NCBI GenBank assembly: GCA_035570235.1
Contig: DATMML010000039.1
Location: forward strand, 1-42,298
Origin: Vicinamibacteria bacterium
Lineage (GTDB): Bacteria > Acidobacteriota > Vicinamibacteria > Fen-336
Length of the DNA: 42,298 bases
Direction of reading: 5' to 3'
Of this stretch, positions 4,545 through 42,298 are shown in pieces. A program made the position numbers and the translations under genes. The notes under the pieces were generated by a model. It did not search any database, had not been told where the DNA came from, and worked only from the letters and a program-made list of their open reading frames with translations. Position 1 is the first letter of the stretch. Each line of letters opens with the position of its first letter.

Positions 4545-5678
4545 TCATGCGGGCCAGGCTCCCCTGGGCGGCTCCTCCGTCCGCCCCTGCTCCTTGAGCG
4601 CCTTCTCCACGAAGGCCCGGAACCGAGATTCGAACACTTGGCGGCTGCAGGCCTCGGCGCGGGTTCGAAGCGTAACCCTATTAAAACTCAGGGTCTCCAG
4701 GGAGTCAACGGCGGCCTTGAGGCCGGCGGGGGAGCCCTCCCCGAAGAGCACCCCCGTCTCACCCGGAGTGACCGATTCCGGGCCCCCGCCCTCGGCGAAG
4801 ACCACGGCCGGGCGGCCGCAGGCCATCGCCTCCAGGGGCACGATGCCGAAATCCTCGATCCCGACCATGAGCACGGCGCGGCACGATCGGTAGAGCTCGC
4901 GCAGGGTGGGGTCGTCCACCCGGCCGATGAACGTCGCCTCGGGGGGGGCGAGGGCCCGGAGCCGGGCCTCCTCCGGGCCGGTGCCCACGATCTTGAGGGG
5001 CCGCCCGGTGCCGCGATAGGCCTCCAGGACGAGGTCCACCCGCTTGTAGGGGGCGAGGGCGGAGACCACGAGGTCGAAGTCGCCCGCGCCGCCCGCGCCG
5101 GGCGTGAAGAAGTCGGTGTCGACGGGGGGCGGGATCACCTCCGCCTCGCGGCCGTAGTAGCGAAGGATGCGGGCGGCCACGTGACGGCTGTTGGCCGCGT
5201 AACGGTCGACGGCACCGGAGGTCGCCACATCCCAGGCGCGGAGGGCCTCCGCGGCCAGGGGAACGACCCGGCGGGCCAGGGGGGAGAGCCGGGGAGGGGC
5301 GAAGTAGTCGAGGTAGCGGTCCCAGACGTACCGCATGGGGGTGTGGCAGTAGCAGAGGTGGAGGGCACCCGACGCGGCCCGCACCCCCTTGGCCACGCAG
5401 TGGGAGCTGGAGATCACGAGATCGTGGCCGGCGAGGTCGATAGAGGCGGCGGCGGCGGGAAAGAGCGGCAGGTAATGACGGTAGTGCCGGGCCGCGCCGG
5501 GGAGGGATTGCACGAACGTGGTGCGGATGTCGCGCGCCTCCAACTCCGGGCAGAGCGAACCCCGCACGTGCAGAAGGGTGAAGATGGGTGCTTCGGGAAA
5601 GAGCCGGGCCAGGGAGAGGAGAACCTTCTCCCCCCCCCGCATGCCGGTGAGCCAGTCGTGGACGAGGGCGACCTTCAG
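4545..5678 (-). CDS. Glycosyltransferase family 4 with probable CTG start
   Basis: A GT-B retaining glycosyltransferase of 377 residues, expected to add a sugar to the growing lipid-linked glycan. The acceptor-domain end reads [19 protein letters not shown], typical of this subgroup. The donor site contains VSALAPYKRVDLVLEAYRGT, KIVGTGPEEARLRALA and the EX7E motif as EDFGIVPLE followed by AMACGRPAVV. The first ATG (5642) would cut off the conserved [11 protein letters not shown] segment. The frame has no ATG, GTG or TTG before that segment, but CTG at 5676-5678 overlaps the previous stop as CTGA and has AGGA 6 bases upstream. I therefore start it there. Donor and acceptor are unknown; mannosyl and glucosyl transfer are common in the family. 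Confidence 0.88.
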   Translation of the reverse strand: MKVALVHDWLTGMRGGEKVLLSLARLFPEAPIFTLLHVRGSLCPELEARDIRTTFVQSLPGAARHYRHYLPLFPAAAASIDLAGHDLVISSSHCVAKGVRAASGALHLCYCHTPMRYVWDRYLDYFAPPRLSPLARRVVPLAAEALRAWDVATSGAVDRYAANSRHVAARILRYYGREAEVIPPPVDTDFFTPGAGGAGDFDLVVSALAPYKRVDLVLEAYRGTGRPLKIVGTGPEEARLRALAPPEATFIGRVDDPTLRELYRSCRAVLMVGIEDFGIVPLEAMACGRPAVVFAEGGGPESVTPGETGVLFGEGSPAGLKAAVDSLETLSFNRVTLRTRAEACSRQVFESRFRAFVEKALKEQGRTEEPPRGAWPA

Positions 5679-6826
5679 CGCATTTCCTGGGCGGCCAGCG
5701 CGGGGAGCGGCCGCCCCAGGGCCCTCAGATAGCCGGAGTGGATGGCCTTGACCGAGCGTTTCCAGCTGAAGTCGCGGACGCGGGACCGGCCCCGCTCCAC
5801 GAGCACCGCGCGCAGGGCGTCGTCGCCCAGAACCCGCTCGATCCCAAGCGCGATCTCGTCCACGCTGTAGGGGTCCACGAGGAGGGCGGCGTCACCGACC
5901 ACCTCGGGCAGGGAGGAGATGCGCGAGGTCACGACGGGGGTGCCGCAGGCCATGGCCTCCAGGGGAGGCAGGCCGAACCCCTCGTAGAGGGAGGGAAAGG
6001 CGAAGACCGAGGCCAGGCGGTAGAGGGCGGCCAGGGTGCGGTCGGGCACGAAGCCGAAGAAACGCACGTCCTGGCGCACCCCCGCGGCCTCCACGCTCCG
6101 GCGCAGGGAGCCGTAGCGGGTCACCTCGTCCCCGATGATGAACAGCTTCAGGTCGTCGTGGCCCGGGCGCTGCTTCACGCGTCCGAAGGCGGCGATCAGG
6201 CGTTCGAGGTTCTTGTGGGGCTTGATGTTCCCCGCGAAGAGCACGAAGCGGCCGCGGATCTGGTAGCGCTCCTTGACACGCTCCATCTCCTCCGGGCCGG
6301 GATCCTCCAGCATGGTGGCGTCGATCGCGTTGGGCACGACGAGAACGCGCTCGGGGTCGGCCCAGGGATAGAAGCGGAGGATGTCGCGGCGCGAGGCCTC
6401 GGAGACCGTGAACACGAGCGCGCTGCGGCGGATCGCGCTCCCCATCATGAAGTGCGCGTAGCGCCAGCCCATGCGGCTGGGCAAGTACTGGGGGAAGAGG
6501 AGGTGGATGCAGTCGTGGATGGTCACGACCGAAGGGATGGTGCAGAGCAACGGACGCACGTAGTGGGGCGAGTGGAGGAGCTCGGCCCCGAGCCGGCGGA
6601 GCTTGATCGGGATCGTGATCTGCTCGCGGAGGCTATAGCCGGCGGAATCATCCACCACGGGCACGAAGTTGTCGGCCAGGTCGCGGAGGGTGGGGGCGTC
6701 GTTGTGGTGGCAGAAGACGAAGTAGGTGCTGTCACCGTCCAGGCCGGCTAGGTGCCGGACCAGGTTGCGGACGTAGGTCCCGATCCCATAGTCCCTCCAC
6801 TTCCGGGCGTCGATCGCGACCCTCAT
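5675..6826 (-). CDS. Glycosyltransferase family 4
   Basis: A 383-residue GT-B glycosyltransferase, probably cytoplasmic and membrane-associated. The N-terminus [21 protein letters not shown] is typical of the mannosyltransferase-like GT4 subgroup. The donor domain has [15 protein letters not shown] (about 197-211) and [18 protein letters not shown] (282-299), with E282 and E290 forming EX7E. AAGGAG lies 11 bases before the ATG, slightly long spacing. It is separated by 159 bases from the GT2 gene upstream and overlaps the next GT4 gene by CTGA, so those two are coupled. The specific sugar cannot be inferred. The related gene at 9045-10160 shares the same architecture, so the four GT4 genes here may derive from duplication followed by divergence. 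Confidence 0.92.
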
Positions 6827-6985
6827 CGGGACTGCCGCTCCTTGATGAGCTCCTCGCCGCCGGTCGGGGCCCCTCGATTCCCAGAGGTCTCATCCAGGAG
6901 GCGCGGGGTCGGGGTCCACGTCGGGTGTCTCTCTCCAAGTGCCACTCCCACCCTAACATGAGCTCCCCGCCGGCCGCAAAGGGAA

Positions 6986-7915
6986 TCAGCCCCTCCGCGC
7001 CGCGCGAAGGAGCCGGCCCGCGTCGCGACGCCGGGCCTGGCGTTCCGGCCCCGGCCCGAGGGCGGCCGCCCATCGGGAAAGGGCGAGCAGGAAGACGCGG
7101 GCGCGGAGGAAGGCGCGGGGCAGCCATCCGTTGTGCTTCCGGTAGTAGAGGATGTGGCTCCGGTGGTACTCCAGGTCCGCCCGGGAGCCCGCCCTCTGCA
7201 TGCTCCGTCCGAGATGGTGGAGAACCTCTGCGGCGGGGGTGAAGAGGATCCGCCACCCCGCCCGACGCACCCGGACACAAAGGTCCACGTCCTCCTCGTA
7301 GAGGAAGAACGCTTCGTCGAATCCGCCCACGGCGAGGAGGGCCTCTCGCCGCGCGAGCAGGCAAGCGGCCGAGACCCAGACCGGCTCGTGTTCATCCGCG
7401 TGGATCCGCTCGGCCCGGGCCAGGGCGGCGGGGACGCGCGCGCGGACGCCGCGCACCAGGCGCCGCTGTCCCCACTCGCTCAGGGGCGTCAAGGCCGGCC
7501 CCGATGAGACCTGGATGGTCCCGTCCGTGCCCCGGGTGCGGGGCGCCACCACCCCGACTTCCGGCCGCGCGTCGAGGAGGGCGACGAGGGTCTCGAGGGC
7601 GCCCGGGCGGACCTCGGCGTCGCTGTTCAGGAAGAGGATGTAAGGGGCTCGTGCCTCGCGTAGCCCGCGGTTGGCGGCCCGGGCGAAGCCGAGGTTCTCC
7701 TCGTTCTCGAGCAGAAGGACGGTGGCAAACTCGCGCCGGACCGTCTCCGGCGAGAGATCCGCGCTGGCGTTGTCCACCACGATCACCTGCAAAGGCAGGG
7801 TCGGGTGGTCAGCCAGGGAACGGAGGCAGCGGCGGAGCTCCTCGCAGGTGTTGAAGGAGACGACGACCACCGCGACGCGGGCGGGATCGGGCCCCCCTTG
7901 GTAGGGCCCCCTCAC
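6986..7915 (-). CDS. Glycosyltransferase family 2 (rhamnosyltransferase-like)
   Basis: A 309-residue inverting GT-A glycosyltransferase. The nucleotide-binding start is VAVVVVSFNTCEELRRCLRSL (14-34, conserved core VVSFN), then VIVVDNASAD (44-53), ENLGFARAANRGL and the metal-binding NSDAEV (97-102). An acceptor segment WVSAACLLARREALLAVGGFDE and FFLYEEDVDLC match WbbL-like rhamnosyltransferases. The frame stays open far upstream, but that part is the antisense-phase shadow of the previous gene. The GTG at 7913-7915 overlaps the previous TGA as GTGA and gives the normal family length. No membrane span is clear. The sugar is unknown, with rhamnose only a family tendency. 159 non-coding bases follow before the next gene. 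Confidence 0.9.
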   Translation of the reverse strand: MRGPYQGGPDPARVAVVVVSFNTCEELRRCLRSLADHPTLPLQVIVVDNASADLSPETVRREFATVLLLENEENLGFARAANRGLREARAPYILFLNSDAEVRPGALETLVALLDARPEVGVVAPRTRGTDGTIQVSSGPALTPLSEWGQRRLVRGVRARVPAALARAERIHADEHEPVWVSAACLLARREALLAVGGFDEAFFLYEEDVDLCVRVRRAGWRILFTPAAEVLHHLGRSMQRAGSRADLEYHRSHILYYRKHNGWLPRAFLRARVFLLALSRWAAALGPGPERQARRRDAGRLLRAARRG

Positions 7916-9048
7916 GGGGTGGCCCCGTGCATCGCGCCCAGGGTTTGACGGGCGGTCTCGGCCCAGGAGTAACGCGCGGCCAGCGCACGCCCCCGGGACA
8001 CGAGCGACTCCCGCAGGGCCTGTTCGCTTAGGAGGCGATCGAGGGCTCCCGCGACGGCGGTCACGTCTCTTGGCTCCACCACCAGGGCGGCCTCGCCGAA
8101 GATCTCGCCCAGGGCCGGCCGCCGGCTGACCAAGAGGGGTACGCCCCGGGCCGCCGCCTCGAGGGCGGGGAGCCCGAAGCCCTCGTACTCGGACAGGAAG
8201 ACCGCGGCGTCCGCGGCCGCGTAGCACTCGGCGAGGGTGGCCTCGTCCGCGAAGCCCGCGAGCCGCACGTGACCGCCGAGGTCGAGCATTTGGACCAGTC
8301 CCTCGAGGTCGAGGCGGGGATGGGTCCGGTTCTCTCCGATCACGTCGAGGCGGAGCCGGGGCCAGGGCCGGCGCAGGAGGGCCACGGCATGCAGCAGCTC
8401 GGGCAGGCAGCGGCGGTTCAGGACCGCGCCCACGGTGAGGAGGTAGGGACCGCGGGCGCCCCGGCGGGCCCGCGCCTCTGCCCGGGGGGGCGGGGGCGGC
8501 AGGTCGTCGTCGGGGCCAAGGGGGACGTGGAGGATCCGGTCGGCGCAGTCCGGGAAGCGGCCCGCAATTTCGCGCCGTGTGAACTCGGAACAGGCGAGGA
8601 CGGTGCGGGAGGCGCGGATGCTCGCCGCCACCAGCACCCGCCGGCGAAGACCGTCGAGGGCACCGAAGTCCTGGGGATGGGAGAAGAACGAGAGGTCGTG
8701 TACGGCGGTCACCCGGGGGACGTGGAGGGCGAGGGGACAGGTGTAAGCCGGCGAGAAAAAGACCTGGATGCCGTCGGTGCGGGCGGCCTCGGGCAGGCTC
8801 CGCTCCTGCCAGAAGAGTCCGCGCCGGGAAGGGAGGCCGCGGCAGAGGATTCGGGGATGGGCGAGGACGGGATCGGCGGGGGGAGGGCCGTTGAAGTAGG
8901 CCACGAAACGGTCGTCGGCGCCCGCGGTCCAGAGCCGGAGCAGGTTGCGGAGATAGCGACCCGTCCCCGTGGGCCGGCCTTGCAGCTCCCGGGCGTCGAC
9001 GCCGATCGTGAGGGCCCCCGTCCCCAAGGGCCCCTGAGCCGGGCTCAC
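7912..9048 (-). CDS. Glycosyltransferase family 4
   Basis: A GT-B glycosyltransferase of 378 residues from the GTG at 9046-9048, which overlaps the upstream stop as GTGA. A 54-base upstream extension is possible but would run into the preceding gene. The N-terminus LTIGVDARELQGRPTGTGRY is followed by the family landmarks TAVHDLSFF, ACSEFTRREIA, TVGAVLNRRCLPELLHAVAL, VRLAGFADEATLAECYAAA and EYEGFGLPALEAAARGVPLL, which contains the EX7E pair. LNRR replaces the usual KN in the donor loop. A proline/arginine-rich stretch (PPPPPRAEARARRGARG) sits between the two Rossmann halves and is probably a linker. It is coupled to both neighbours by 4-base overlaps. Donor and acceptor are not predictable. 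Confidence 0.9.
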   Translation of the reverse strand: MSPAQGPLGTGALTIGVDARELQGRPTGTGRYLRNLLRLWTAGADDRFVAYFNGPPPADPVLAHPRILCRGLPSRRGLFWQERSLPEAARTDGIQVFFSPAYTCPLALHVPRVTAVHDLSFFSHPQDFGALDGLRRRVLVAASIRASRTVLACSEFTRREIAGRFPDCADRILHVPLGPDDDLPPPPPRAEARARRGARGPYLLTVGAVLNRRCLPELLHAVALLRRPWPRLRLDVIGENRTHPRLDLEGLVQMLDLGGHVRLAGFADEATLAECYAAADAAVFLSEYEGFGLPALEAAARGVPLLVSRRPALGEIFGEAALVVEPRDVTAVAGALDRLLSEQALRESLVSRGRALAARYSWAETARQTLGAMHGATP

Positions 9049-10160
9049 CGGCCCAGGATACGGCGGTAGAAGCCCAGGGTCTCCCGCACCGTCGCATCCC
9101 AATCGAAGCGCCGGCTCCGGGCGAGGCCCTTCTGCCGCTGTTCCTCCGCATAGGCGGGGTCATCGAGGACTCGTTCCAGGCCCCCCGCGATCGATCCCGC
9201 ATCGAGGGGATCGACGAGGGTGGCGGCATCGCCGGCAATCTCCTCGAGGGCCGATCCCCGTGAACAGACCACCGGCAAACCCGCGGCCATGGCCTCGGCA
9301 GCGGGGAGTCCGAATCCCTCCTCCAGGGAGGGCAGGACTAGGAGGGCGCAGGCGGCCATGAGGGCCCTGAGTTCGCGGGTGGCGAGGTAGCCGGTGGACC
9401 GGATCTGGGGGGCGATCTGGGAGCCACCCTGGGCCCATCCGGGGCCGGGTCCAACCAGGACGAGGGGGGGGGTGCGGGGCCGCCGGCGGGCGAGCCCCAT
9501 GTAGGCCATGGCCAGGTTCACCACGTTTTTGCGCCCCTCGTCGCTGCCCACGTAGAGGATGGCGCCCCGGGGCAGCCCGCGGCGGGCGAGCACGGCCTCG
9601 ACCTCGGGGGCGGGAACGGGGGCTCGGTAGATGGGGTCGACGCCGTAGGGCGTGACCGCCAGTTTCTCCTCGGGGACGTCCAGGAGGCGCCGGATGTCGG
9701 AGGCGGTGAACTCGGACCCGCAAAGGACGCCGTCCGCGCGACGGACGTGGGCCCGCACGAGGGGCACGTAGTCCCGCTGCACCTCCGCCCGCGTCATCTC
9801 CGGATGCTTCAGGAAGAACAGGTCGTGGATGGTGAGCACATGGCGGGCCCTCCGGCCGGGGACGATCAAGGGGTGGGGCGAGTGGATGAGGTCCAGGGGA
9901 GCCCCCACCAGGCGGTCCAGGGCCGGCGCCCCCAGCCGGTTCCAGGCGAAGTTGAGGGCGCGGACGGGGATGCGGCGGTCCACGAAGGTGACGTTGGGGG
10001 CCCAGGCGCGGGGGGGGTAGCGATCGCGGAGAGAGGCGGAGAAGAAGAAGAAGCGGTCCTCCGGCGCTGCCACCGGCAGCCTCTCCGCGAGGGCGAGGAT
10101 GTAAGCCCCCGCCCCCGTGGGCCGCAGGAGGGAAGGCCGGAGGTCGAGGCCCACATTCAT
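9045..10160 (-). CDS. Glycosyltransferase family 4, first gene of the minus-strand arm
   Basis: A 371-residue GT-B glycosyltransferase. I placed the start at ATG 10158-10160, giving MNVGLDLRPSLLRPTGAGAY, the usual start of this GT4 group. The longer open frame reaches into the divergent ugd gene and its extra residues are not family-like. Landmarks are LTIHDLFFLKHPEM, CGSEFTASDIRRLL, YVGSDEGRKNVVNLAMAY, TGYLATRELRALMAAC and EEGFGLPAAEAMAAGLPVV with EX7E. It opens the arm that runs down to the UDP-xylose synthase, and is divergent from ugd across 124 bases. Only a weak GGAA precedes the ATG. Its stop overlaps the next GTG. The sugar is unknown. Confidence 0.91.
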   Translation of the reverse strand: MNVGLDLRPSLLRPTGAGAYILALAERLPVAAPEDRFFFFSASLRDRYPPRAWAPNVTFVDRRIPVRALNFAWNRLGAPALDRLVGAPLDLIHSPHPLIVPGRRARHVLTIHDLFFLKHPEMTRAEVQRDYVPLVRAHVRRADGVLCGSEFTASDIRRLLDVPEEKLAVTPYGVDPIYRAPVPAPEVEAVLARRGLPRGAILYVGSDEGRKNVVNLAMAYMGLARRRPRTPPLVLVGPGPGWAQGGSQIAPQIRSTGYLATRELRALMAACALLVLPSLEEGFGLPAAEAMAAGLPVVCSRGSALEEIAGDAATLVDPLDAGSIAGGLERVLDDPAYAEEQRQKGLARSRRFDWDATVRETLGFYRRILGR

Positions 10161-10284
10161 GGTCGGTTCCGGAAGCGATGATACCAAGCCGGGCCCAGGG
10201 GCACGAGGGGCTCCGGAGAGGGTCGTTGTGCTAAAGTCACCGCTCGCTCCCGTGGCCGCCACGGTGGGCCGGAGATACTCGATC

Positions 10285-11583
10285 GTGAACATAGGAGTGG
10301 TGGGCAGCGGATATGTCGGCCTCGTGGTCGGTGCGTGCTTGGCGGAGAACGGCAACTCCGTGGTCTGTGTCGACTCCGACGCAGAAAAGGTCGCGGCCCT
10401 CTCCGGGGGCGTGATCCCCATCTACGAGCCGGGGCTCGCGGAGATGGTGCCGCGCAACGTTGCCGAGGAGCGCCTGCGCTTCACCACCGATCTCGCGGGC
10501 GCGGTGCGGGGAAGCGAGGTGCTGTTCATCGCGGTGGGGACGCCCCAGGGCGAGGACGGCTCCGCGGATGTGAAGTACGTGCTCGGGGTGGCGGAGGGCA
10601 TCGCCCGCGCCATCAACGGGTTCAAGATCGTGGTCAACAAGTCCACGGTTCCCGTGGGCACCGCCAAACGCGTGCGGGAAGTCATGGCCGCCATTACCAC
10701 CCATCCCTTCGCGGTCGTCTCCAACCCCGAGTTCCTGAAGGAAGGGGTGGCGGTGGACGACTTCCTGAAGCCGGACCGGATCGTCATCGGCACCGATGAC
10801 CCGAAGGTGGAAGCGGTGATGCGGCAGCTCTACGAGCCCTTCGTGCGCACCGGCAACCCCATCCTGGTCATGGACCACGCCTCCGCCGAGCTCACCAAGT
10901 ATGCGGCCAACGCCATGCTCGCCACCCGCATCTCCTTCATGAACGAGATCGCCAACCTCTGCGACAAGGTGGGAGCCGACGTCCGCCAGGTGCGGCTGGG
11001 GTTGGGCCGGGACGGCCGGATCGGGGCCTCTTTCCTGTTTCCGGGCGTGGGCTACGGCGGCTCCTGCTTCCCCAAGGACGTGAGGGCGCTGCTCCGCATC
11101 GGCCACGACCTGGGCTGCGAGATGTCGGTGGTGGCGGCGGTGGATCGAACGAACGAGATGCAGAAGCGTAGCCTCGTCCCCCGCATCGAGGCCTATCTGG
11201 GCGGCCTGGCCGGCCGCGTGGTGGCGGTGTGGGGGCTGGCCTTCAAGCCCCGCACGGACGACGTGAGGGAGGCCCCCGCCCTGGCCATCATCGAGGCCCT
11301 CCTGGCCGGGGGCGCCGCCGTCCGGGCCTATGACCCCAAGGCCAGCGGGACCGCGCGCCGGATCTTGGGCAACCGCGTGGCCCTGTGCTCGCGGAGCTAC
11401 GAGGCGGTGGAAGGGGCGGACGCGCTGGTAGTGGTCACGGAGTGGAACGAGTTCCGGGAGCCCGACTTTCAACGGATGAAGTCCCTGATGCGCCGCCCCG
11501 CGGTCTTTGATGGACGGAACATCTACGAGCCGAAGCAGCTGCGGGAGCTGGGTTTCCATTACGAAGGCATCGGCCGGCGGTGA
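10285..11583 (+). CDS. ugd: UDP-glucose 6-dehydrogenase
   Basis: Oxidises UDP-glucose to UDP-glucuronate with two NAD molecules, the precursor for the UDP-xylose synthase in the opposite arm. The 432-residue chain begins at GTG 10285, ten bases after GGAG, and opens with the NAD-binding NIGVVGSGYVGLVVG. Family motifs are VGTPQGEDGSADVKYV, NKSTVPVGTAKRV (118-130), SNPEFLKEGVAVDDFLKPDR (146-165), the helix segment AELTKYAANAMLATRISFMNE, and GVGYGGSCFPKD with the catalytic Cys261. The C-terminal nucleotide-binding domain has WGLAFKPRTDDVREAP. A longer open frame upstream crosses the divergent promoter region and lacks family sequence. The gene overlaps galE by GTGA. Nothing essential is missing. 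Confidence 0.95.
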   Translation: MNIGVVGSGYVGLVVGACLAENGNSVVCVDSDAEKVAALSGGVIPIYEPGLAEMVPRNVAEERLRFTTDLAGAVRGSEVLFIAVGTPQGEDGSADVKYVLGVAEGIARAINGFKIVVNKSTVPVGTAKRVREVMAAITTHPFAVVSNPEFLKEGVAVDDFLKPDRIVIGTDDPKVEAVMRQLYEPFVRTGNPILVMDHASAELTKYAANAMLATRISFMNEIANLCDKVGADVRQVRLGLGRDGRIGASFLFPGVGYGGSCFPKDVRALLRIGHDLGCEMSVVAAVDRTNEMQKRSLVPRIEAYLGGLAGRVVAVWGLAFKPRTDDVREAPALAIIEALLAGGAAVRAYDPKASGTARRILGNRVALCSRSYEAVEGADALVVVTEWNEFREPDFQRMKSLMRRPAVFDGRNIYEPKQLRELGFHYEGIGRR

Positions 11584-33892: not shown

Positions 33893-34225
33893 TCAGCTCG
33901 AGACGCGGATCAAACCCCTCAATCGGGCGTGCTGGGGGCCGCTCGGGTGGGCCCACTGGAGGCCGTAGCAGAGGGCGCCCGCACCGTTGCGACCGGTCTC
34001 GCCCCAGACGACGCGCCCGGCCGCCTGGAAGGGCTGGGGCTCGAGGGCGAAGCTCAGGCGAAGGACGAGGTTCTCTCCCACATCGAAGGCGCCGGTCGTC
34101 CACACGCAGGCCCCGGCATCCGAGATGTTGGCGACCACGCCGAAGGCGCGGGGCAAGCCTTGGTTCTCGATGACGACCGTGACCGCGCTCCTCGGGATCA
34201 CGCGGAGCGCATTCCGCTTGCGCAT
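33893..34225 (-). CDS. PilZ-domain protein (c-di-GMP binding)
   Basis: A 110-residue single PilZ domain. The c-di-GMP-binding RxxxR is R4-x3-R8 in MRKRNALR, and the second motif NISDAGA fits D/NxSxxG. Strands follow as ACVWTTGAFDVGENLVLRL, FQAAGRVVWGET and ALCYGLQW. The ATG at 34225 is chosen because it places RxxxR at the start and GGGAGG lies just upstream; a longer frame upstream is low in family content. It may modulate cell-surface or motility functions. It lies 154 bases after the metzincin gene, and its stop faces the carbamate kinase gene (12 bases). Confidence 0.84.
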   Translation of the reverse strand: MRKRNALRVIPRSAVTVVIENQGLPRAFGVVANISDAGACVWTTGAFDVGENLVLRLSFALEPQPFQAAGRVVWGETGRNGAGALCYGLQWAHPSGPQHARLRGLIRVSS

Positions 34226-34379
34226 AGCCTCCCGGCTCCCCTTTACCGACCGACCCGCCCCCGGGTCGCCGGGGTCGCGGTCCGCTGAAACGGCCCCGCC
34301 GCCGGCGAGCAAGTCGAGACTACGCTCGGAGATGGGTCGGGTCAAGCAGGGCCCAGCCGCCGATGCGGAGCCACGGGGC

Positions 34380-35372
34380 TCAGGGGCGACCACACGCCAG
34401 CACCTGGGCTTTAGCGCGGTTGGTGCTGAGCAGAAGCTCGTCGTCGCTATCCGGAAAGCGATTGCCGGGCGAACGCTGGAGCATCAGGTCTACGGCGAGC
34501 CGCTCACGCGGGGAGAAGTCGGATAAGTCATAGATTTCCGGGCCGTTAAACATCACATCCCCGACTCGTGGAGAGTGCCCGAGACCGAAGGTATGGCCCA
34601 GCTCATGGAGCACCAGGGGCAGGCGCAGAGCCAACTCCCGGCTGCGCAGGGCGACGGTCGCGCCCGTTATGGCGCCGCGGCTGTCGATCTGGCGGCGGGT
34701 CACGCCTCCCGCTCCGAGTTGCAGGAGCACGGGATCGTTGGGGTCGATCCAGGTGCTCACGGTAAGCGCCCCCGGGGGGGCAGCGTCGGCCACCATGTAC
34801 GTCACCACTCCCTCGGTGGCCGTGGTCAGCAGCGCGGCCGCCTGCTTGTGGATCTCCAGGGCCGCGGGGTCGGACCGGATCTCCGCGGAGGGCACGACGA
34901 AGACGGGACCCCGGAGGACCCGAGCCAGGGGCTGCCCGGCGGAGGGGCACGTGGCTTCCGTGCAGTTGTAGACGAGCCGGGCCGAGTACTCCTCGTCCAG
35001 TCCGGTCGGGCTGACTTTCGGCCAGAGGCTCAACGGGCTTGACCGAAAGAGTGTCCGGCGCTCCAGGAAGCCCGAGGCGCTCGCATCCACGTCCGTGGCG
35101 CCGGTGGAAACAGCCAGGAGCACGATCTTCCCCTCCGAGTCCGTCGTGTAGGCCCGGCCGTCCACAAGGACGCGGACTCCCGCCACCGGCTGCTGGGTCT
35201 CGCCGGAGATGAAGCTCAGGGCGTGGAGGGCGTGGAGGGATTGAACGGCGGGAGCGCCGGCACCGCCGAAAACGGGGGGAACCGCGGCCGCCGGCGTGGG
35301 ACCGGTGGGGCTGCCCCCGTGGCACGCGACGAGGCCGGACGCGAGCGCTAGCAACGCGACAGACTGCCTCAT
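34380..35372 (-). CDS. Lipoprotein metzincin-type zinc metalloprotease
   Basis: A 330-residue outer-layer lipoprotein with a protease signature. The lipobox LVAC puts the lipidated Cys at residue 17. A proline-rich stretch follows, then a small Ig/carboxypeptidase-regulatory-like beta domain (about 52-110: VAGVRVLVDGRAYTTDSEGK, core GVRVLVDG). The zinc motif HELGHTFGLGH lies at 256-266 with the Met-turn M274 in GDVMF. The HExxHxxGxxH plus Met pattern defines metzincins, and the spacing resembles matrixin-like/archaemetzincin groups. Two Cys (137, 142) could form a disulfide. The substrate is unknown. I do not recognise a named family. It precedes the PilZ gene on the same strand. Confidence 0.83.
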   Translation of the reverse strand: MRQSVALLALASGLVACHGGSPTGPTPAAAVPPVFGGAGAPAVQSLHALHALSFISGETQQPVAGVRVLVDGRAYTTDSEGKIVLLAVSTGATDVDASASGFLERRTLFRSSPLSLWPKVSPTGLDEEYSARLVYNCTEATCPSAGQPLARVLRGPVFVVPSAEIRSDPAALEIHKQAAALLTTATEGVVTYMVADAAPPGALTVSTWIDPNDPVLLQLGAGGVTRRQIDSRGAITGATVALRSRELALRLPLVLHELGHTFGLGHSPRVGDVMFNGPEIYDLSDFSPRERLAVDLMLQRSPGNRFPDSDDELLLSTNRAKAQVLACGRP

Positions 35373-39935: not shown

Positions 39936-40724
39936 TCAGACCTGCCCGCGCTTGAGCTCCCCGTCGATGGAGGGTCGGACCTCGGGCTTCAGGGGGGCGT
40001 CGGCGATGAAGCCCACCGTGAGCAACCCCCCCTCCACCGGGACGCGCCAGGCGGTCAGGTGCTTGCCGCTTAGGGGTACCGAGACCGAGCGGGTTGGCGC
40101 GTCCTTCAGGGCCTTGTCCATGGCCGGCACCAGCCGAGCCGCGATGGCTTCCACGCCAGGGGGGGGCCAGTCCCCGCTGAAGGCGGCGATCTGACCTTGA
40201 ACGTTGATGAGGAGTGCGCCCCCGGCCCGGGCCAGAAAGAGGCAGTCCTGCAGGATCTCCGTCCAGGTGGGCGGCGCGGGCGGCAGGGGTGGCTCCTCGG
40301 CCATGGCCGACTCCAGGTCCGCAACGAGCTCGAGCTCGGGCTCGGCTTCGTGGGCGGAGGGAGCGGAGAGAGCGGAAGGGGCGGATTCCGCTTCGCCCTG
40401 TATGTCCGGCAGGTCGGGTTCGCGCTCCGTCTCGAGTTCGAAGACCGGGGGTGGCACGTGGGGCTCCGGCCGGGGAGGAGCGACAATCCGCTCCGGCTTG
40501 GGCGGCAGCGGGGGCTCCACCGCAGAGGGCTCCGGCTCGGGGGGGCGCGGGGCGGGCCTTGGGGCTAGCGGGACGTCTGCGGGGGGGGGCGCGGGGGCCC
40601 CGCTGGGCGGAGGGGAGGCGGGCCGGCCGAGGGCATCCCGACTCGCGGTCGGCTGACTCAGGCGGCGGGCGATCGCACGCGCCGTCTCGAGGTCAGAGGA
40701 GCTGCCGGGCGGGCTTAGCTTCAT
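39936..40724 (-). CDS. Proline-rich protein with C-terminal roadblock-like domain
   Basis: A 262-residue protein I do not recognise as a named family. The N-terminus (KLSPPGSSSDLETARAIARR) is followed by a proline-rich segment (about 35-95) and an acidic segment (95-145). A compact C-terminal domain (about 155-262) has strand/helix pattern ALLINVQGQIAAFSGD, VEAIAARLVPAMDKALKD, SVSVPLSGKHLTAWRVPV and GGLLTVGFIADAP. That layout resembles roadblock/LC7 modules, which scaffold small GTPases; this is a visual inference. ATG 40722-40724 overlaps the parA end by 32 bases, so both are likely coupled. No signal peptide or membrane span. It may be the partner of the ParA. Confidence 0.65.
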   Translation of the reverse strand: MKLSPPGSSSDLETARAIARRLSQPTASRDALGRPASPPPSGAPAPPPADVPLAPRPAPRPPEPEPSAVEPPLPPKPERIVAPPRPEPHVPPPVFELETEREPDLPDIQGEAESAPSALSAPSAHEAEPELELVADLESAMAEEPPLPPAPPTWTEILQDCLFLARAGGALLINVQGQIAAFSGDWPPPGVEAIAARLVPAMDKALKDAPTRSVSVPLSGKHLTAWRVPVEGGLLTVGFIADAPLKPEVRPSIDGELKRGQV

Positions 40725-41511
40725 GGGGCTGTTTCTCCATTCCACGGAACCGGTCCATCCGTGCCTCGAGCTCGTCGGCTAGGAGCTCGAAGCGGCGCGC
40801 CTCGGGGATGGGAGACCCGCCTAGAAAGCCGAGGGGGAGGCCGCCCTCGCTCGCCCGGGCGAAGACCTCGGAGCGGGGCACGATCGTTTCGAGAGCGTCG
40901 GGAAAGCCGTTCCAGATCTCGCGCAGCACGGCCTGGACGCTGGGCTTGTCCCTCTCCACCATGGTGGGGAGAATGCCCAGGAGTCGCAGACGGGGATTTT
41001 CATTGGCTTGGACGTGCTCCAGAACGCGCAGGGCTTGGGTCATGGAGCGCAGGGCGAGAGCCTCGGTCTGGAAAGGCAAGAGAACGAAGTCCGAGATGGC
41101 CAGGGCTGCCCGGGTGACCATGCCCATGCCAGAGGGGGTGTCCATCAGGACGATGTCGAAGCCCTGTTCGACGCTGGCGAGCGCGTGCTCCAGAATCCCG
41201 GGGCTGGAAAGCTCGCGTTCATAGGAAGAGACATCGGTAGGGTCCAGCCGGCCGCGCGTCAAGAGGCTCAGGGCGGGGAGATGGGTGGCGGTGACCGCCT
41301 GCCTTGGCTCGGCCTGGCCCATGAGCAACTCGGCCAGCCCTTGAAGCTCGGCGTCGCCCTTGGCCAGGGACAATGCGATCCCCCCCTGCGGGTCGAGGTC
41401 GGCCAGAAGGGTCTTGCGGCCCCGGTCGGCTAGGGTGACCGCCAGGTTCAGGGCGACGGTCGTCTTGCCCACGCCCCCCTTCTGGCTTGAGATCGCCACT
41501 CGACGTGCCAT
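40693..41511 (-). CDS. ParA/MinD-family ATPase (orphan)
   Basis: A 272-residue P-loop ATPase that positions cargo by gradients on DNA or membrane. The deviant Walker A is KGGVGKTT (residues 11-18), A' is DLDPQGG and Walker B is IVLMDTPSG. LLPFQTEALALRSM and ILPTMVERDKPS follow in the usual places. No ParB gene or parS-like site is visible nearby, so it may position another cargo, such as a polarity or motility complex. The ATG at 41511 is preceded by GGGGGTG; a GTG six bases upstream is an alternative. It overlaps the next gene by 32 bases. The MinD-type amphipathic C-terminal helix is not obvious, so nucleoid binding is more likely. Confidence 0.88.
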   Translation of the reverse strand: MARRVAISSQKGGVGKTTVALNLAVTLADRGRKTLLADLDPQGGIALSLAKGDAELQGLAELLMGQAEPRQAVTATHLPALSLLTRGRLDPTDVSSYERELSSPGILEHALASVEQGFDIVLMDTPSGMGMVTRAALAISDFVLLPFQTEALALRSMTQALRVLEHVQANENPRLRLLGILPTMVERDKPSVQAVLREIWNGFPDALETIVPRSEVFARASEGGLPLGFLGGSPIPEARRFELLADELEARMDRFRGMEKQPHEAKPARQLL

Positions 41512-41766: not shown

Positions 41767-42189
41767 ATGACCAAGAAGCATGTCGCCGGGCTCGTACCCG
41801 CGGTGACACTTTGCCTCGCCACGCTTGCGGTGGGGGCGTCATCCCGGCAGTCAGTCACGGTGGAGTTACCAGAGGCGACCGCGCTCAACGGCACCCAGCT
41901 GAGCGCGGGCACTTACACGATTTCATGGATGGGCGAAGGACCCGAAGTGGCCGTGACCGTGAAGAAGAGCGGGAAGGTCGTGGCCGAGACCCGTGGCAAG
42001 CTCGTGGACATCGGCCGCAAGGCGGAGGAAGACGCGGTGGTCGTGAGGACGGACGGAGGAGGCAGCAAGACCCTGACCAAGGTCCAGTTCGGAGGCCGAA
42101 AGAGCGCGCTCGTCGGAGCGCTTGACCGAACGCGACGCCCGGCAGCCGGTTGCGACCAGCAGAGGCTGCCCAAGGCTGATATGGAGTGA
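41767..42189 (+). CDS. Small secreted protein of unknown function
   Basis: A 140-residue exported protein. GGAGGTGAGC precedes the ATG at 41767, and MTKKHVAGLVPAVTLCLATL with cleavage near VGAS is a signal peptide. The mature part is mostly beta: VTVELPEATALNGTQLSAGTYT (core ALNGTQLSAGTYT), VAVTVKKSGKVVAE, then AVVVRTDGGGSKTLTKVQFG. Similar 110-150-residue secreted proteins occur in Acidobacteriota-like genomes. The last ~25 residues (after KSALV) are basic and different in flavour, and one frame over a stop (TGA) appears shortly after, so an indel may have lengthened the protein. No function is assigned. Confidence 0.7.
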   Translation: MTKKHVAGLVPAVTLCLATLAVGASSRQSVTVELPEATALNGTQLSAGTYTISWMGEGPEVAVTVKKSGKVVAETRGKLVDIGRKAEEDAVVVRTDGGGSKTLTKVQFGGRKSALVGALDRTRRPAAGCDQQRLPKADME

Positions 42190-42265: not shown

Positions 42266-42298
42266 CCTCCTTCGGAAGACGAAGACGACGGATGAGGC

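Follow-up and report, generated by a model that had tools for sequence, protein, structure and literature searches.

ParA ATPases are steered by extremely diverse adaptors, many of which await identification. In the McdA-McdB, ParC-ParP and PpfA-TlpT systems, a ParA/MinD ATPase is encoded with its partner, and a short N-terminal helix, a disordered stretch and a link to cargo recur, a layout mirrored in the locus described here. In excerpts of the respective papers, the N-terminal 20 residues of McdB, a predicted helix, are both required and sufficient for McdA binding (PMC12204374), the N-terminus is given as the general contact point of partners with their ATPase (PMC10241942), and orphan parA genes are reported from many bacterial genomes (PMC9178275). 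A different nucleotide machine is found in MglA-MglB and the actinobacterial conservons, where a roadblock-fold partner lies beside a Ras-like GTPase. Bacterial roadblock proteins are known as partners of small GTPases. ParA-adaptor positioning and the regulation of NTPases by roadblock proteins are each known; a pair of ParA and roadblock protein, or its link to gas sensors, was not found in the open-licence PMC literature (subscription journals lie outside this scope), and among papers on DUF4388 in the same collection none on such a pair was recognised. Within excerpts of PMC12462528 and PMC9178275 the word 'roadblock' denotes only obstacles on DNA, and it does not occur in PMC10241942.

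We analysed a 42,298-nucleotide stretch of Vicinamibacteria DNA (hereafter the window), which is contig C39 of a 5.7-Mb, 138-contig genome. It encodes a ParA-type ATPase whose gene runs into that of a downstream partner (Table 1), and the overlap, together with the ribosome-site-like GGAG inside parA, suggests that translation of the two genes is probably coupled. The contig ends at position 42298, 0.8 kb upstream of parA, and the sole gene visible there is a divergent one. This small gene (41767-42189), which matched no Pfam family, begins like a signal peptide by eye.

Table 1. Features of the parA-partner locus, in positions of the window.
Feature	Position	Strand	Basis
parA-type ATPase gene, 272 aa	40693..41511	minus	AAA_31 E 4.6e-33; 1wcv E 3e-32; tree
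Deviant Walker A motif QKGGVGKTT, ParA residues 10-18	41458..41484	minus	sequence, alignment
Partner gene, 262 aa, adaptor carrying a predicted roadblock domain (ATG at 40724, stop at 39936)	39936..40724	minus	structure prediction and fold comparison
32-base overlap of parA and partner	40693..40724	minus	gene coordinates
Ribosome-site-like GGAG inside parA, 10 bases 5' of partner ATG	40735-40738	minus	read from sequence
Partner N-terminal helix, residues 10-23 (DLETARAIARRL region), putative contact element for ParA	40656..40697	minus	full-length model; conserved box
Proline-rich arm, residues 31-94, 44% Pro	40443..40634	minus	composition; no secondary structure in model
Acidic arm, residues 95-146, 16 D/E vs 1 K/R	40287..40442	minus	composition; no secondary structure in model
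Roadblock/LC7-fold domain (predicted), residues 154-260	39945..40265	minus	AlphaFold2, Foldseek, VIA-align

The ATPase matched Pfam AAA_31 and CbiA, both over cut-off, and its closest solved structure was Thermus (T. thermophilus) Soj (1wcv). In a 24-row alignment (A6), residues K11, G12, G13, K16, T17 and T18 were invariant, the first of these being the retained sandwich-dimer lysine. D40 was invariant in the same alignment and aligns to the hydrolysis-related aspartate of Soj, which we take to be D44, a residue that reads as A in chain 2bek. By computation, then, the protein is an ATPase of the ParA clade that carries every ATPase signature residue. Its gene shares with Soj-Spo0J both the ParA sequence and an overlapping downstream partner gene, but ParB is absent, no DNA-binding domain was recognised, and the protein falls in a separate tree clade.

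For the partner, neither Pfam nor NCBIfam gave a match even at E 10, and the Pfam PF03259 cut-off was missed by its best relatives as well (two proteins, E 0.024 and 0.012). We predicted the structure of its last 118 residues with AlphaFold2 as a single chain with 33 homologues (pLDDT 92.7, pTM 0.84), and the C-terminal domain is confidently predicted to adopt a roadblock/LC7 fold with the secondary-structure order H-E-E-H-E-E-E-H. Myxococcus MglB was the top Foldseek match (E 1.4e-5, probability 1.00) and aligned at Z 12.5 over 112 residues in VIA-align, with LAMTOR, MP1-p14 and archaeal roadblock chains ranking below it. A full-length model showed the N-terminal helix (pLDDT about 79 in block 11-20), no secondary structure over residues 24-153, and the roadblock fold with block pLDDT mostly >90. 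By sequence, a link to roadblock proteins is weak but present: beside the two sub-threshold Pfam hits above, a partner profile compared with nine roadblock proteins of the family loci defined below gave P 0.00056, though at a probability of only 29.8%, vs a control P of 0.45, and an iterated profile reached DUF4388-roadblock proteins at E about 1e-7. The earlier note had read from the letters an overlap of 32 bases, no visible parB, a proline-rich arm with an acidic stretch, and a C-terminal domain of roadblock-like layout for which it called for structure prediction; the coordinates, the roadblock-fold neighbour in place of ParB, the composition of the arm and the predicted fold, which is no different fold and has MglB as its nearest solved counterpart, all agree with it.

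We searched for the pair in relatives. Among 60 relatives, clear ParA orthologues were present in G006 (69%) and G012 (67%) and diverged ones in G042 (42%) and G002 (40%), and all four carried an overlapping downstream partner. A single-protein search with the partner was convincing for G006 and G012 alone in the same 60 relatives, and ParA was therefore taken as bait; the remaining partner matches (E 0.001 or worse) look like proline/alanine-rich chance and were rejected. Within the window's own family the pair is patchy, occurring among 13 relatives in G006 and G012, plus the diverged version in G002. A 396-genome sample of the window's phylum contained a ParA match at E 1e-45 or better in 38 genomes and a score >200 bits in 18, the window's genome included. 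At E 1e-60, ParA matches were present in 11/395 genomes of the Geobacter-record phylum sample (3 of these 11 >235 bits) and in 11/282 genomes of the Myxococcales-record phylum sample. A scan of named genomes yielded 84 candidate stretches and 37 loci from Acidobacteriota, Desulfuromonadales/Geobacteraceae-type and Myxococcota records.

Once 11 loci that duplicated others had been set aside (L098, L099, L100, L105, L107, L112, L125, L173, L174, L183 and L184), 76 ParA genes were compared, with 'family' ParA defined by a cut-off of 235 bits that was fixed post hoc once scores were known. A roadblock-profile partner lay directly downstream in 60/67 family ParA genes, while none of the nine lower-scoring ParA genes had a separate partner (two, L167 and L168, being ParA-roadblock fusions), and the other seven of these nine, the ordinary ParA controls and a small set, had no adjacent roadblock-fold partner. 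The seven family genes outside the 60 comprise three at contig ends (L086, L127, L128), one with a GAF partner (L132), the fusion gene of L083, the second copy of the tandem pair in L130 and, in L180, a ParA that lacks a partner; a partner was also present beside one more ParA just below the cut-off (L189, 232.6 bits). Ordinary ParA was followed by ParB in L097 (by Pfam), which lies on contig C103 of the window's own genome, and by a ParB-like gene in L169 and L170 (by eye). In a quick maximum-likelihood tree with SH-aLRT support only (26/73 inner branches <80), the root branch separated the seven ordinary ParA proteins from all 69 others (SH-aLRT 93), with the ParA-roadblock fusions at two places. 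Adjacency of ParA and partner is more than chance (60/67 vs 0/7), and the pair is ancient and conserved in Acidobacteriota, Desulfuromonadales-type and Myxococcota genomes.

Several loci depart from the two-gene form. L167 (7984-9195) and L168 (7553-8749), from two genomes of the Geobacter-record phylum, encode single ParA-roadblock proteins of 403 and 398 aa with KGGVGKT intact, and in an independent fusion, L083 (= L125), the Walker motif is broken, KGG having become EGE. Overlapping a Polyangiaceae ParA of the clade (L132, 1957-2877) is a partner that retains an N-terminal arginine-containing stretch and has a Pfam GAF domain in place of the roadblock domain. L130 carries two tandem clade ParA genes (6105-6923 and 7568-8389) that flank a single roadblock-fold partner.

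Across the trimmed N-termini of 50 partners, the GAF partner included, a box recurs (e.g., SSDLExARAIARRL, NSYDLKQAQQIL and LSWIDPxxxSxxLxRAG), which was lost in one partner (L112). The net charge of the first 30 residues was +2 in the window, with a mean of +0.96 across partners (range -4 to +6; positive in 30/50), a weak fit to the 'basic N-terminus' customary among ParA adaptors. Overlap of parA and partner ranged from 14 to 35 bases (n = 50), a narrow spread that is partly by choice, since the script picked the partner start nearest a 32-base overlap. The likeness to McdB-type adaptors is one of layout (sequence relation was checked through Pfam, NCBIfam and PADLOC alone), and the window partner differs from them in that its C-terminus has the predicted roadblock fold.

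We counted neighbouring genes within 6 kb using local profiles from mostly Pfam-confirmed seeds, across 68 family loci and the 7 controls, on gene calls from a simple codon-position script of which some are surely wrong. ODP (di-iron sensor type) was found in 15/68 family loci, FIST in 14/68, HNOB (H-NOX) in 4/68 and protoglobin in 3/68 (with a further one in L106 by Pfam), vs 0/7 controls for each. Some haem/di-iron sensor-type gene of these four kinds was present in 34/68 loci, usually accompanied by roadblock and DUF4388/receiver genes; when L106 is counted as positive, a gas-sensor gene was absent within 6 kb in 33/68 loci. Roadblock genes (21/68 vs 0/7), DUF4388-roadblock types (35/68 vs 0/7) and receiver/DUF4388 types (50/68 vs 1/7) were also found near the family. 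McdA-McdB and the other ParA-adaptor systems differ in keeping company with carboxysome or chemotaxis-array genes. In L172, from the Myxococcales-record phylum, genes for roadblock (10724-11089), ODP (9952-10713), receiver-DUF4388 (8928-9950), ParA (8123-8935) and partner (7552-8151) form one tightly packed minus-strand cluster, and its order is shared by L073 and L082 from the window's phylum.

Judged from their sequences, the ODP and FIST proteins of these loci are putatively of sensor type. In excerpts, ODP is described as a sensor of oxygen with an effect on CheA ordering in Treponema (PMC7666581), and NosP FIST domains bind haem and sense NO (PMC12570481). Eleven family-carrying genomes held 8 strong ODP genes (>190 bits), 7 of them at most 2.7 kb from a family-type ParA and the eighth adjoining roadblock and receiver-DUF4388 genes, and the 29 FIST matches of ten genomes included one in each of the ten ParA loci. 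These frequent gas-sensor neighbours point to an undescribed link of gas sensing to ParA machinery. A haem-binding globin is likewise joined with roadblock in HGbRL of Methylacidiphilum, which is described as one fused protein in an excerpt that makes no mention of ParA (PMC4476040); sensor and roadblock are here separate proteins of one locus. No gas sensor was found within 6 kb in the window, where the view stops 0.8 kb upstream, or in L088 and L089, its two closest relatives. L088 and L089 carry a DUF4388-receiver protein upstream of the pair; in the window, the visible 0.8 kb upstream of parA contains no such gene. Relatives of the L089 DUF4388-receiver protein are encoded in the window's genome on contigs C11 and C135 (43% and 41-55%), and ParA or partner was not found in the stretches around them.

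With fold and conservation of the pair firm, we infer a mechanism in which parA and its partner would form the core of a conserved ParA-adaptor system, with the helix on ParA and the roadblock domain on a cytoplasmic signalling complex, a proposal that we regard as evenly poised between right and wrong. The adaptor's N-terminal helix would bind the ATP-bound ParA dimer and stimulate hydrolysis in the manner of the ParB and McdB N-termini, and the flexible arm would give reach to cargo. The roadblock domain may dimerise, or hetero-dimerise with other roadblock and DUF4388 proteins, and such contacts would tie ParA to a cytoplasmic signalling complex sensing oxygen, nitric oxide or phosphorylation. 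By cycling on the nucleoid, ParA would space, gather or segregate this complex, and the sensed signal would alter its assembly. Contact between adaptor and ParA, activation of the ATPase and localisation are all presumed here, a positioning role being suggested by the ParA family itself; the window shows the ParA-adaptor core alone of the proposed system. Arguing for a ParA-adaptor system are the adjacency (60/67 vs 0/7), the one-sided tree grouping, the fusions, the fold, the helix-arm-domain layout and the neighbours, and against it stand the weakly basic N-terminus, the box lost in L112, the exceptions L180 and L132, the 33/68 sensor-free loci, the broken Walker motif of L083 and the patchy occurrence in the window's family. 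A broader proposal, which we put forward tentatively and at somewhat less than even confidence, is that in at least three phyla ParA rather than a Ras-like GTPase pairs with roadblock proteins, and that gas sensors feed roadblock/DUF4388 scaffolds that ParA positions or reads. If true, a group of orphan ParA genes gains a partner and a testable input, and a second class of nucleotide machine falls under the control of roadblock domains, matching an old general prediction. The conserved union of ParA and roadblock includes natural fusions and has putative oxygen/nitric-oxide sensor-type genes adjoining in half of the loci.

The chief rival to positioning is a switch, in which ParA takes the place of MglA, roadblock proteins control its ATP state and an unnamed effector reads ParA-ATP, with nucleoid positioning unneeded. 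Several results favour it: the nearest fold is MglB, the GAP of MglA; the histidine kinase, receiver and roadblock genes nearby recall conservons and MglA systems; and the fusions join a roadblock domain directly to the ATPase. MglA-MglB and conservons likewise have a roadblock-fold partner beside a P-loop nucleotide machine, with kinase/receiver proteins around the pair in relatives. However, the N-terminal helix and long arm of the partner are the layout of ParA positioning adaptors and not of MglB. MglB is close to a bare roadblock domain (chain lengths 119-145 among the Foldseek matches), and the roadblock domain in the window, unlike those of MglA-MglB and the conservons, ends a helix-plus-arm adaptor. 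ParA also retains its sandwich-dimer lysine K11, and it is a ParA-family ATPase where the known systems use a Ras-like GTPase; MglA itself was not encoded beside the partner, an MglA-like protein being seen by eye in L108 alone. Roadblock proteins were predicted to be general NTPase regulators (Koonin and Aravind 2000, as cited in excerpts of PMC4316618 and PMC4476040), and we consider the switch unlikely but worth serious attention.

The earlier note proposed a ParA plus roadblock-domain scaffold that places a surface or motility complex. The pair itself was upheld, ParA and roadblock-domain partner being conserved together in 60/67 clade members, and cell-surface and c-di-GMP-related genes do exist in the window, as a PilZ-domain gene and polysaccharide-type genes at the opposite end (by eye). 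These lie >5 kb off and outside the conserved neighbourhood. Roadblock proteins do partner polarity GTPases in gliding, and PilZ and envelope-type genes occur in the window, which would suit such a cargo, but those neighbours are unconserved, and the conserved ones are sensors and cytoplasmic signalling proteins (gas-sensor-type in 34/68 loci, roadblock and DUF4388/receiver), so a surface or motility cargo is unsupported. Pfam matches of the conserved clusters scanned included no pilus, flagellar or gliding families, and we judge such a cargo improbable. The PilZ-domain gene (33893-34393; E 2.6e-11) is on the same strand as the pair, with several unrelated genes in between.

A DNA partition system in which the partner replaces a cryptic ParB would suit a ParA of chromosomal/plasmid type by sequence (Soj being its best match) and an overlapping partner gene as in parAB; it is very improbable, as the models give the partner a roadblock fold and no other folded domain, and the genome has its own ParA-ParB on C103. 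It was rejected with no ParB beside parA and no DNA-binding fold recognised in the partner. That the ATPase is just an orphan ParA of the ordinary kind, beside which a gene unrelated in role lies by coincidence, is scarcely credible, orphan parA genes being reported across many bacterial genomes (excerpt of PMC9178275) but the adjacency of 60/67 in three phyla and the independent fusions already contradicting it. An anti-phage system was also rejected, PADLOC giving 0 families for the partner and short N-terminal matches alone for ParA.

Further observations concern individual neighbourhoods. In L190 (7039-9215), roadblock, ODP and receiver-DUF4388 genes are consecutive without ParA, and a ParA-partner pair lies elsewhere in the genome. 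A fusion of HD (HD_5, HDOD), PAS and histidine kinase lies between ParA's receiver gene and ODP in L165 (9863-12616), and similar HD-type genes were seen by eye in L166 and L182, which hints at a c-di-GMP branch. In the Desulfuromonadales-type operon of L113, two conserved proteins of 171 and 193 aa (5348-5863 and 5881-6462) with no significant Pfam match are encoded between a DUF4388-roadblock protein and a DUF4388-like protein before ParA, and the 193-aa protein has 62-91% identity over five loci.
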